Positions 6,947 through 10,247 of a DNA stretch of 64,000 nt are shown piece after piece. The notes under the pieces were generated by a model. That model saw only the letters and a program-made list of their open reading frames with translations, was not told the DNA's origin and made no database searches. Origin of the DNA: an uncultured Pelagibacteraceae bacterium (GTDB lineage: Bacteria > Pseudomonadota > Alphaproteobacteria > Pelagibacterales > Pelagibacteraceae); assembly GCA_902595465.1 (NCBI GenBank), contig CACJQE010000002.1, positions 59,260 through 123,259 on the forward strand, in the 5' to 3' direction. The stretch's first letter is position 1. Every line of letters starts with the position of its first letter. A program made the position numbers and the translations under genes.

Positions 6947-7015
6947 ATGACGCCAGAAAACTCCCAGAAAATCTGGAAAATTATTCAGGAAGCTGGCGAT
7001 TATTTACGGGATTAG
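6947..7015 (+). pseudogene. Truncated copy of a small QEAGDYL-family ORF (MTPENSQKIWKIIQEAGDYLRD*)
   Basis: 22 aa; shares exact 25 nt attcaggaagctggcgattatttac (6983-7007) with 10058-10082. Confidence 0.55.
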
Positions 7016-7122
7016 AGGAGCAACTTAATCCACATTAAGCTACAATATTCTACAGTACTTATGCGGATATTAAAAAGTTACCTTGAATTAAATCGCTTAA
7101 AGACTCATCAATTTTACAGTCA

Positions 7123-7147
7123 AACTAGAACCACAACTAGAACTTTT
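7123..7147 (+). repeat. 25-nt direct repeat copy A (aactagaaccacaactagaactttt)
   Basis: Identical to 9971-9995. Confidence 0.9.
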
Positions 7148-7215
7148 TGAGATAAATCAAACAGCCATTTTTAAAGCAAATAGACTCATGGTTCGAGATT
7201 TGATAATCTTGGATT

Positions 7216-7273
7216 ATGAAAAAACTTTTAGGGATCGTGTTTCTTGGTTTGTTGTTGAGTGGAAACTCTAACG
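7216..7273 (+). repeat. Signal-peptide-encoding repeat copy 1
   Basis: First 24 nt ATGAAAAAACTTTTAGGGATCGTG identical in all three copies. Confidence 0.9.
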
Positions 7274-8055
7274 CTTGTGAAAAAGAGGATTTCATAAAAT
7301 ATATATCAGCAGGTAAAAACAAATGTATAGCAATTTTAAATTTAGGAAAAATTGAAAAGAGTAAAAAAAACTTAATAGTATTTCTTCATGGTGATGGTAG
7401 TCCTAATTCTCCAAGGCCAGGAATACCCAAAAAAAGTCAAATTAGATTTGCAAAAGAATTAATAAACGATGATAACAATATTTTTCTTTTTGCAAGACCT
7501 GGTTACTTTATTAGAGAAAGAGGCAGTAGTGAAGAGGATAGATATTCATCAGGACCTCGTAACGCTATAAAGAGTACAGTAGTAAATTATGATTGGAAAA
7601 ATTTTCAAATACTAGTACCTGCATTACAAAATCTTAAAAAATATTATAAACCAAAAAAACTAATTTTAATTGGTCATTCTGGAGGAGCTTATCAGGGAGG
7701 TACTATTCATGGAAAAGTACCAGGATTAGTTGATATGAATATTTTGATCTCTTGCCCGTGTGATTGGGAAATTAGAAAAAAACTAAGCAACGGTAAAAAA
7801 TGGGAAACCAAATCTCAATTGAAAGAATTAAAAAAAAACTCACCAAGTTTCAATTATAAAGATATAGATTTAAAATCTCTCAATATATTAATTGTTGGAA
7901 AAGATGATAAAAATACAGCTCCAGGAGTTTCAAAATATTATTATGATTTACTTAAAAAGAAAAAACTACAAGTTAAGTTACATATTATTGATGGAGGTCA
8001 CGGATTAAGGTCTATGCCAACAATTGGATCTATAATTAAAGAATATATAAACTAA
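7216..8055 (+). CDS. Exported alpha/beta-hydrolase-like protein
   Basis: Signal peptide MKKLLGIVFLGLLLSGNSNA; nucleophile elbow GHSGGAYQGG; C-terminal His in GGHGL. Confidence 0.7.
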   Translation: MKKLLGIVFLGLLLSGNSNACEKEDFIKYISAGKNKCIAILNLGKIEKSKKNLIVFLHGDGSPNSPRPGIPKKSQIRFAKELINDDNNIFLFARPGYFIRERGSSEEDRYSSGPRNAIKSTVVNYDWKNFQILVPALQNLKKYYKPKKLILIGHSGGAYQGGTIHGKVPGLVDMNILISCPCDWEIRKKLSNGKKWETKSQLKELKKNSPSFNYKDIDLKSLNILIVGKDDKNTAPGVSKYYYDLLKKKKLQVKLHIIDGGHGLRSMPTIGSIIKEYIN

Positions 8056-8113
8056 TGAAAAAACTTTTAGGGATCGTGGTTCTGGGTTTATTAATATGTG
8101 AAAACGTGTTTGC
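8055..8113 (+). repeat. Signal-peptide-encoding repeat copy 2
   Basis: First 35 nt identical to copy 3. Confidence 0.9.
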
Positions 8114-8933
8114 TGGCGTAGAAGAAGTTTTGAAAGAAATCAAAAAAAATAAAGATATAGTCCAGGGTTTTGATAAAGTTAAAGAATTTGATACTTGGAA
8201 TGAATGGCGTGTTACCCCTAAAGCAATACTCAAATCAGATAAATCAAAAAGACAGCATATAGTCAAAATTGTTAATAAATCTGATAATCATCCTGTTAGA
8301 TTTGGAAAACAATCCTTAAGATTTGAAGTTAGAAATGGTGATGGCTGGGGTTGGGATGCCAGGAATGATAGGGAAAGATCCGAACTACTAATTTGTTGTG
8401 TTAATAAAAAAACTACATGGACTGCTTGGTCACTATATTTGCCTAATGATTATGAAAAGATATTTCCTGCTAAGACTATGTTAGCACAATTCCATAATGA
8501 TGCTGATAATCCACCTGCATTTGCTTTTGATAATCAATCTGAACGTCATGTAAATGAGGGAGGTGGTTATTGGATTGCAGTAGATGAATATATAAATAAG
8601 AAATTTTTACTAAAAAAACTATTAGATCATTCAGAAACACTTGGCAGATGGAACGATATTTTAGTTAATGCAAAATGGACACACAAGGAAAATGGTTTTT
8701 TTAAAATTTGGATTAATGGTAAACTTGCTTTTCACCACAAAGGTATGACGCAAGAAAAAGGAGAAAATATTGAATTTCATGTTGGTATTTACAGATCTTT
8801 TCTTTCAAGAACACCTGGGCCAGATAAAACTCAAATAGCTTATTATGATGAGATAAGACATGCAAAGACTTGTAAAAAACTTAAAATCAATGATCTAGGA
8901 TATTCTTGTAAAGATATAGAAAATCAAAATTAA
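8055..8933 (+). CDS. Exported polysaccharide-lyase-like (heparin lyase I fold / Polysacc_lyase) protein
   Basis: Signal peptide MKKLLGIVVLGLLICENVFA; LRFEVRNGDGWGWDARNDRERSEL and WTHKENGFFKIWINGKL..YDEIR resemble the jelly-roll lyase family. Confidence 0.7.
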   Translation: MKKLLGIVVLGLLICENVFAGVEEVLKEIKKNKDIVQGFDKVKEFDTWNEWRVTPKAILKSDKSKRQHIVKIVNKSDNHPVRFGKQSLRFEVRNGDGWGWDARNDRERSELLICCVNKKTTWTAWSLYLPNDYEKIFPAKTMLAQFHNDADNPPAFAFDNQSERHVNEGGGYWIAVDEYINKKFLLKKLLDHSETLGRWNDILVNAKWTHKENGFFKIWINGKLAFHHKGMTQEKGENIEFHVGIYRSFLSRTPGPDKTQIAYYDEIRHAKTCKKLKINDLGYSCKDIENQN

Positions 8934-8934
8934 A

Positions 8935-8997
8935 ATGAAAAAACTTTTAGGGATCGTGGTTCTGGGTTTGTTGTTGAGTGGGAATACTTTTGAATAA
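8935..8997 (+). repeat. Signal-peptide-encoding repeat copy 3, truncated (MKKLLGIVVLGLLLSGNTFE*)
   Basis: 20-aa ORF starting 1 nt after the lyase stop; runs out of frame into the HNH ORF. Confidence 0.85.
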
Positions 8998-9922
8998 GTA
9001 TATTGAAGAGTTTACTGATCTAATTTCAAATTGTTCGATGGATAACACCTATAAAATGGCTTGGTGTAGAGCCTTAGTTGAATATTCCTGCAATCATACT
9101 GATAAAAAGATTCATTTTAATCACCTTTCTGAGCTAATGTTCAAATATTATTGGGATCAAACAATATTTTTTAATCTAGAACAAGGATCTAACTTAAAAA
9201 AGAGGCCTACTATTATTCAAATTGTAAAAAATGAAATTAATAAATATGAAAAGAATTTTGACAAAAAACCTATTAACTATATTCGAATAAAAGACAAAAT
9301 AGATGTTGATATTACTAAAATTAGCAAAACACTAACCTACGACGTTTCTTGGAGATTTTTAAATTTAGGAAGTAAAACTTATGATACTTATAAATATAAA
9401 AAGGGAGATAAGCATCTAATTTTACATCAACCTGATATTATAAAACACCATTCCAAACTATTATTTCAACTAATAAATTACAGATGGTCTCAAAAATTGG
9501 AAGATCTGAATAATGCCCCTCGTATTTCGCAAAAAGTAAGAGGTGTTGATAGAGATCAAGAACCTAAAAGAAAATCACTTAAAAAATTTAAGCAATTTTT
9601 AGATCATGAAAACCCTGATAGGGTATGTTTCATAACAGGTAAAGCTATTCCAGAAAATGATCTATCAATAGATCATATTATTCCGTGGTCTTACATGTAC
9701 TCAGATGATCTATGGAACTTGGTTTATGTGAACAAATCAATTAATTCGAGCATGAGCAATAGAATCAAAAAGGATGATATTAAAAATAAATTAATAAGTA
9801 GAAATAAAAAACTCCTTCGATCATTAGATGCAAAGAAAATAAACACCAAAGATGTGGAAGAACTTCGTTTAGCTAATGAAAAAGATTACGTTGAATTATT
9901 TTGGATAGCTAATCAAGGGTAG
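8978..9922 (+). CDS. HNH endonuclease-domain protein
   Basis: CFITGKAIPENDLSIDHIIPWSYMYSDDLWNLVYVNKSINSSMSNRI = HNH core; starts at GTG (8978) or TTG (8990). Confidence 0.8.
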   Translation: MGILLNKYIEEFTDLISNCSMDNTYKMAWCRALVEYSCNHTDKKIHFNHLSELMFKYYWDQTIFFNLEQGSNLKKRPTIIQIVKNEINKYEKNFDKKPINYIRIKDKIDVDITKISKTLTYDVSWRFLNLGSKTYDTYKYKKGDKHLILHQPDIIKHHSKLLFQLINYRWSQKLEDLNNAPRISQKVRGVDRDQEPKRKSLKKFKQFLDHENPDRVCFITGKAIPENDLSIDHIIPWSYMYSDDLWNLVYVNKSINSSMSNRIKKDDIKNKLISRNKKLLRSLDAKKINTKDVEELRLANEKDYVELFWIANQG

Positions 9923-9963
9923 AAAATTGTCTTTAAGATTAATATTTAATAATGTAGGATTTT

Positions 9964-10029
9964 ATGGGACAACTAGAACCACAACTAGAACTTTTGGAGA
10001 TGTTTCAAGGTTTTGTAGTAAATGAATGA
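9964..10029 (+). other. Small ORF MGQLEPQLELLEMFQGFVVNE*, contains 25-nt repeat copy B (9971-9995)
   Basis: 21 aa; 25-nt identity to 7123-7147; overlaps start of next small ORF. Confidence 0.4.
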
Positions 10030-10247
10030 AGATAATCGGCGTAAACTCTGGGTTTTAATTCAGGAAGCTGGCGATTATTTACATGGTCAACTTCCTGATC
10101 ATCCAAATCATCCAAAAGGAAAATCCATATGCTCATGTAGCAATATGTGTAAAAAACAAATTTAATTCTACTTATAAAGATATTCCTGATGACAAATTTG
10201 ATGAAGTAATCAACTATATTAAATTTTTAAAAGAAAATCCTAGTTAA
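10022..10247 (+). pseudogene. Frameshifted small QEAGDYL / ORF6C-like gene
   Basis: Frame 1: MNEDNRRKLWVLIQEAGDYLHGQLPDHPNHPKGK; after a frameshift at ~10121: NPYAHVAICVKNKFNSTYKDIPDDKFDEVINYIKFLKENPS*. Confidence 0.6.

Follow-up and report, generated by a model that had tools for sequence, protein, structure and literature searches.

The window analysed here, a stretch of 64,000 nucleotides from a draft genome of genus g1 whose relatives are almost all Pelagibacteraceae or Pelagibacter, i.e. SAR11, raises the question of why one short sequence is repeated at the head of neighbouring, unrelated genes. A preliminary description had noted three signal-peptide cassettes at this locus and proposed that the secretion signal spreads, or is homogenised, as a DNA module. 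The repeat itself was readily recovered: ATGAAAAAACTTTTAGGGATCGTG, a 24-mer, is found exactly at 7216, 8055 and 8935, always on the same strand. Even when 3 mismatches are tolerated the window holds no further match, and none arose in 100 shuffles. As had been claimed, copies 2 and 3 of this leader are identical over 35 nt, and TTGTTGTTGAGTGG is common to copies 1 and 3.

All features of the array described below lie on the forward strand (+). Leader copy 1 (7216-7250, two differences from the 35-nt consensus) constitutes the first 35 nt of a gene for a secreted alpha/beta hydrolase of 279 aa (cassette 1, 7216-8055; Pfam match to PF00326, prolyl oligopeptidase / alpha-beta hydrolase), whose TAA stop codon (8053-8055) shares one base with the ATG of the following gene. 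Leader copy 2 (8055-8089), in turn, forms the first 35 nt of a gene for a secreted polysaccharide lyase of 292 aa (cassette 2, 8055-8933; Pfam match to PF14099), and the mature parts of the two proteins are unrelated, as the preliminary description held. Leader copy 3 (8935-8997) reads MKKLLGIVVLGLLLSGNTFE, a mini-ORF of 20 codons with its stop at 8995-8997 that encodes no secreted protein; it overlaps, in another frame, the HNH-domain gene of cassette 3 (8978-9922, starting at GTG 8978 or TTG 8990; PF13395, E = 2.3e-9). Secreted proteins thus follow copies 1 and 2 alone, not all three copies as had been supposed. Nor does the identity stop at the cleavage site: copies 2 and 3 diverge after nt 35, in the middle of the hydrophobic stretch, and the likely cleavage site, near residue 20, lies well 3' of this point. 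Simple tandem duplication was rejected as the origin of the copies, for PF00326, PF14099 and PF13395 are unrelated and 83 families carry the leader genus-wide.

The array is enclosed by repeats of a second kind, which we call R2. One of them, recognised by repeat-family comparison and containing two copies of AACTAGAAC, marks the upstream end (7111-7152), and another, 86% identical to it, marks the downstream end (9959-10000). To the left of the array, 6955-7005 holds a third repeat, a piece of a small EAGDYLHG gene, which matches the array edges of two other genomes, G031 and G004, at 88-90% identity; at the right edge, a small gene of the EAGDYLHG / HPNHPKG type, as read from the sequence, is frameshifted (10025-10247), and the conserved backbone flank begins at 10058. 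The segment 9955-10080 is 98% identical to another locus (L163). At many loci the EAGDYLHG...HPNHPKG small-gene family directly follows R2; a 37-aa piece of it gave no Pfam match. Among 37 distinct R2 copies (the two in the window and those of loci L031-L200), a conserved frame, TATAGGATTTTATAGGA ... GAGATAAA, surrounds two direct copies of a variable word of 8-10 nt, AC[CT]NGNNCN, spaced 11 or 12 nt apart. There are 28 distinct words in the 37 elements, and both copies vary together, so that the pair looks like a putative paired binding site with diversified specificity.

The leader is not peculiar to this genome. The preliminary description had it recurring in other SAR11 genomes, and indeed 89 of 201 genomes of genus g1 carry it, with up to 11 copies per genome (21-mer, at most 3 mismatches). 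It is also present in genera g7, g8 and g9 of the same family, f1, and a sister family is essentially without it (one 3-mismatch match in 54 genomes). A scan of species genomes returned at least 120 stretches with the leader, and arrays may hold up to about ten leaders, head to tail, in 9.5 kb (genome G079). Altogether 279 distinct copies were collected, mostly from loci fetched by leader sequence, which biases the set to consensus copies; smaller sets fetched by mature protein were in agreement. An ORF of at least 70 aa follows 192 of these copies, and 87 (31%) head none. By blastp, the 192 ORFs fall into 83 unrelated protein families. Most have no Pfam name; those that do include polysaccharide lyases, esterase-like hydrolases, MORN-repeat proteins, an autotransporter and a glucose/sorbosone dehydrogenase. 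For the leader itself no NCBIfam or Pfam model was met among the 83 representatives scanned. Some lyase orthologs bear unrelated signal peptides, which counts against the explanation favoured below. Two usually cytoplasmic types of protein, AlgH/YqgE-like and SixA-like (members of alignment A1), appear with the leader in frame, through either an unusual fusion or a wrongly called start. Nearly the same leader relic was seen in a Methylococcales bin (L107) and in a Pelagibacteraceae MAG (L058); the former is probably contaminated. The leader bears a clade signature rather than one of a single locus, as genus g8 copies mostly read AGCGATC and those of g1 AGGGATC (by eye, AGC in about 13 of 16 g8 copies vs about 4 of ~150 listed g1 copies).

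How the array changes can be seen by comparing the same island in three genomes, the source genome, G031 and G004, where it adjoins a conserved threonine-aldolase-like flank. Relative to the window, the backbone of G031 and G004 is 73-80% identical and the cassettes 91-95%. The G031 match covers 6968-8088 at 94.8% between flanks of 73-78% and ends inside leader 2, past which G031 continues into an R2 repeat. In G004 the order of genes is swapped, lyase then hydrolase, and its two matches (7216-8093 and 8054-8988) each run from one leader into the next. The cassettes thus have leaders as their boundaries, and they have crossed between genera. At a genus g8 locus (L212) the hydrolase cassette is 97.8% identical over 7215-8091, with no similarity beyond (98.1% over 840 nt). 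Its mature part differs at 12 of 777 nt (98.5% identity) and its leader at 3 of 35, and both g8 leaders in this comparison carry the AGCG typical of g8. A different locus, L214, presents the lyase with 5 differences in 816 nt of mature sequence, 4 in the 35 nt of leader, and unrelated DNA upstream. No more than ~12 shared nt, ATGAAAAAA and a few T, precede its junction, which suggests that genes without a leader can be recruited through the common MKK start.

The same behaviour was found throughout the genus. Alignment ends fall in leaders in 128 of 1338 cases, about tenfold over the 12.7 expected; at the starts of other ORFs, taken as their first 35 nt, there is no such enrichment (47, where 40.9 were expected). 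After merging, 90 of 962 distinct breakpoints remain in leaders (expected 9.1), and a breakpoint is present in 39% of leaders vs 3.6% of random windows. Pairs with a common upstream 60 nt have a different downstream family in 137 cases and the same one in 17; close orthologs, on the other side, have unrelated upstream DNA in 112 of 117 pairs, right up to position -1 (identity over -10 to -1 is 0.37 vs a background of 0.38). Nearly all of the 14 upstream contexts seen at least three times precede more than one unrelated family or a relic leader, and the hydrolase 3' end is joined, through the leader that follows it, to at least 8 different families. Since homology breaks inside the leader on both sides, whole genes appear to move from leader to leader. 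Along nt 1-60, linkage to the upstream context falls (Spearman -0.54), whereas that to the gene body becomes stronger (0.55). When one recent pair was taken from each of seven families, leaders held 19 differences in 245 nt and bodies 18 in 1632 (p = 2e-8). As neither the breakpoint pairs nor the close-ortholog pairs are mutually independent, p-values are guides only. Breakpoints, linkage and the surplus of leader over body differences are all expected if crossovers take place inside the leader between non-identical copies.

The preliminary view would fall if leaders diverged at synonymous sites like ordinary homologs, and on this point the answer was mixed. In the lyase, same-codon identity is 0.72 in leader and mature part alike; in the hydrolase the leader, at 0.87, is below the mature part, at 0.96. 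Recombination within the leader predicts this; a leader frozen at synonymous sites within orthologs was accordingly rejected. Among loci, leaders of the same protein family differ at 3.6 positions per 35 nt and those of unrelated families at 3.2, so that leaders within a family are no more alike, in support of a module at DNA level. Of the preliminary view, the existence of a DNA module common to unrelated genes stands, and homogenisation within one locus does not: non-anchor copies gave p = 0.06, and the full set of copies gave no signal. The module idea was largely right, but the leader is a crossover zone and not merely cargo.

Conservation begins exactly at the ATG, with none of any strength upstream, second codon positions are the least variable, and 168 of the 192 ORF-heading copies have an AxA or lipobox signal-peptide look, as judged by a simple sequence pattern. 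One might suppose that selection for one optimal signal peptide, along with ordinary transfer of whole genes, has produced the likeness in DNA as a by-product, and the predominance of copies that head an ORF, their signal-peptide look and the low variability of second codon positions would fit. Yet a secretory role is not apparent for roughly one copy in three, and among the copies that head no ORF of this length the non-anchor ones have kept the sequence nearly as well as the rest (3.5 vs 3.0 mismatches). Neither the breaks of homology inside leaders, absent from other gene starts, nor the excess of leader over body differences in recent pairs follows from such selection, and we consider it quite improbable as the main cause.

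The relic leaders bring in another possible function. Of the 49 that are not followed by R2, 20 have the ATG of an ORF of at least 70 aa no further than 12 nt from the stop of the mini-ORF, where 4.2 would be expected. At two loci (L035:1921 and L106:5619) the mini-ORF stop and the ATG of a type IV pilin-like gene overlap (MKQKGFTLIELLVVVAIIGI). These arrangements speak for conservation of the leader chiefly as a mini-cistron for translation initiation, by which the next gene is driven, recombination being secondary. Against this, 38 relics lead directly into R2, with no excess of ORF starts there, and the joining of unrelated upstream and downstream sequences at the leader would be left unexplained; as the primary reason for leader conservation, a mini-cistron thus seems very improbable.

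Many of the source genomes are single amplified genomes, in which short repeats can mislead assembly, and chimeras formed at a 35-nt repeat during assembly or amplification might imitate the junctions. However, the same hydrolase-leader junction recurs, with several partners, in many separate assemblies, and leaders are present in four closed single-contig genomes (G226, G230, G231 and G341). G226 and G230 contain leader-R2 fusions, and in G341 a 93.7% match to locus L143 ends inside a leader. Recurrence of the pattern in closed genomes makes assembly error unlikely, and as a general account of the data we give it hardly any credence.

What could catalyse the exchange? RecA is present in 8 of 8 genomes tested, and each of the eight has a single tyrosine recombinase gene (PF00589, ~325 aa), the uniform size of which suggests a housekeeping recombinase of Xer type. 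In the source genome this gene is on contig C34 and the array on C2; the four closed genomes have no less than 90 kb between it and the listed leaders. The HNH-domain gene of cassette 3 was rejected as the recombination enzyme of the system, as it occurs in just one of the 201 genomes of the genus, that of the window; the gene also stands behind the same leader relic at L071:6277, with the same leader-HNH junction and a different cassette upstream. The fold of the leader is unremarkable against shuffles (z = 0.28 and 0.68), by which a structured RNA or DNA hairpin was ruled out. RecA pathways in E. coli need a match of about 35-60 nt. Taken together, the presence of RecA, the lone and distant tyrosine recombinase, the lack of a fold and the 35-60 nt match favour ordinary homologous recombination, which we infer to be of RecA type and RecA-dependent. 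The ~12-nt junction of L214, being shorter than RecA usually needs, is a point against this explanation.

A dedicated recombinase, site-specific or transposase-like, that targets the leader in the manner of an integron with its site at the 5' end of the cassette would account for the sharp edges of the core, which starts exactly at the ATG and in relics drops after nt 34, and for the head-to-tail arrays as dense as that of G079. A contig from a viral collection, L151 (IMGVR_UViG_3300025168_016823), has an integrase-like ORF and a MORN-type lipoprotein gene headed by a leader, at 973-1722 and 8498-9505, assignments read from translations, and would also fit; elements of this kind are possible vehicles for leader cassettes. 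Nevertheless, the leader forms no unusual hairpin (z = 0.28), the one gene per genome for a tyrosine recombinase, the class surveyed, is far from the leaders in the closed genomes, and crossovers seem spread over the leader, even if the linkage gradients are not significant within the 35-nt core alone, so that a preferred crossover point may exist there. On balance we regard a dedicated enzyme as unlikely, though less so than the other alternatives.

The explanation that we hold to be probable, with good confidence, is transfer of genes as cassettes that reach from leader to leader, through ordinary homologous recombination inside these ~35 nt; the leader would also provide the start codon, together with the signal peptide or a coupled mini-ORF. 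The leader would then be a short direct repeat, ATG plus about 32 nt, with two jobs. As DNA, it would offer a homologous block in which incoming and resident DNA recombine, the travelling unit reaching from a gene's own leader as far as that of its downstream neighbour. As coding sequence, it would contribute a start codon and encode the opening 11-12 residues of a signal peptide of the Sec or lipoprotein type, and nearly any gene captured in frame would be secreted, while out-of-frame joins would give rise to a coupled mini-ORF. Cassette arrays of this sort would fill variable islands of the SAR11 family f1 and be exchanged across species and genera. Incoming DNA presumably enters by transformation or on mobile elements, and the captured genes would be expressed from a shared upstream promoter and their products actually secreted. 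We also entertain, more tentatively and with some doubt, a gene-mobility system in its own right, belonging to the SAR11 family: a cassette array anchored at start codons in which signal-peptide DNA is the recombination site, so that capture, expression and secretion of a foreign gene are achieved in one step, with selection for both roles and possibly with help from a dedicated factor or from the R2 elements at array ends.

Several known systems resemble the leader arrays in part. Integron arrays likewise line up unrelated genes head to tail, and a short repeat is where these are acquired, lost and rearranged, but the leader repeat is translated, stands at the 5' end of the gene and encodes a secretion signal. 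Nothing like the folded attC-type site at the 3' end of integron cassettes was found, as the leader is 5' and folds as shuffles do, and in the source genome and the four closed genomes no IntI-type recombinase adjoined an array. For SAR11 hypervariable regions, Wilhelm et al. 2007 (PMC2217521) likewise report no attC sites. In the Vpma and Vsp genes of Mycoplasma, a conserved 5' region with the signal peptide is joined to different mature proteins by recombination, as in leader genes. The Vpma recombination site, however, is the stretch of 72 nt upstream of the start codon, and Xer1 acts on it to give inversions (PMC2268961). In contrast, leader conservation starts at the ATG, the upstream DNA is unrelated and the copies of the window share one orientation; a conserved 5' untranslated recombination site of the Vpma/Vsp type was not seen at leaders, where positions -10 to -1 are at background.

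Replacement flexible genomic islands of aquatic bacteria and SAR11 hypervariable regions occupy fixed sites with variable content, which is exchanged through homologous recombination (PMC4033161, PMC2217521). Leader cassettes share these properties with flexible islands, and at leaders, too, junctions lie in a shared homologous block and the flanks differ. Accounts of flexible islands invoke the conserved flanks of the whole island, whereas the leader permits gene-by-gene exchange via an internal 35-nt block. Polymorphic toxin systems combine a constant N-terminus with exchangeable C-terminal cassettes. As in those systems, a constant 5' coding segment is joined by recombination to varied downstream modules, but here the constant part has only ~35 nt and its partners are whole unrelated genes, both secreted and not. 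A search of open-access full text found no published account of the leader peptide or of SAR11 signal-peptide shuffling.

For the interpretation of SAR11 genomes, one consequence is that likeness of signal peptides says nothing on common descent of the proteins that carry them. The leader is, moreover, a simple marker for the exchangeable part of the SAR11 pangenome, and most leader-headed genes, including many without a known family, are predicted to be exported. SAR11 are among the commonest bacteria of the ocean, and their genomes are small and lean, yet variable islands within them turn over fast. A translated repeat of ~35 nt serving as a universal join would explain how new secreted enzymes can be plugged into these islands and spread between species.
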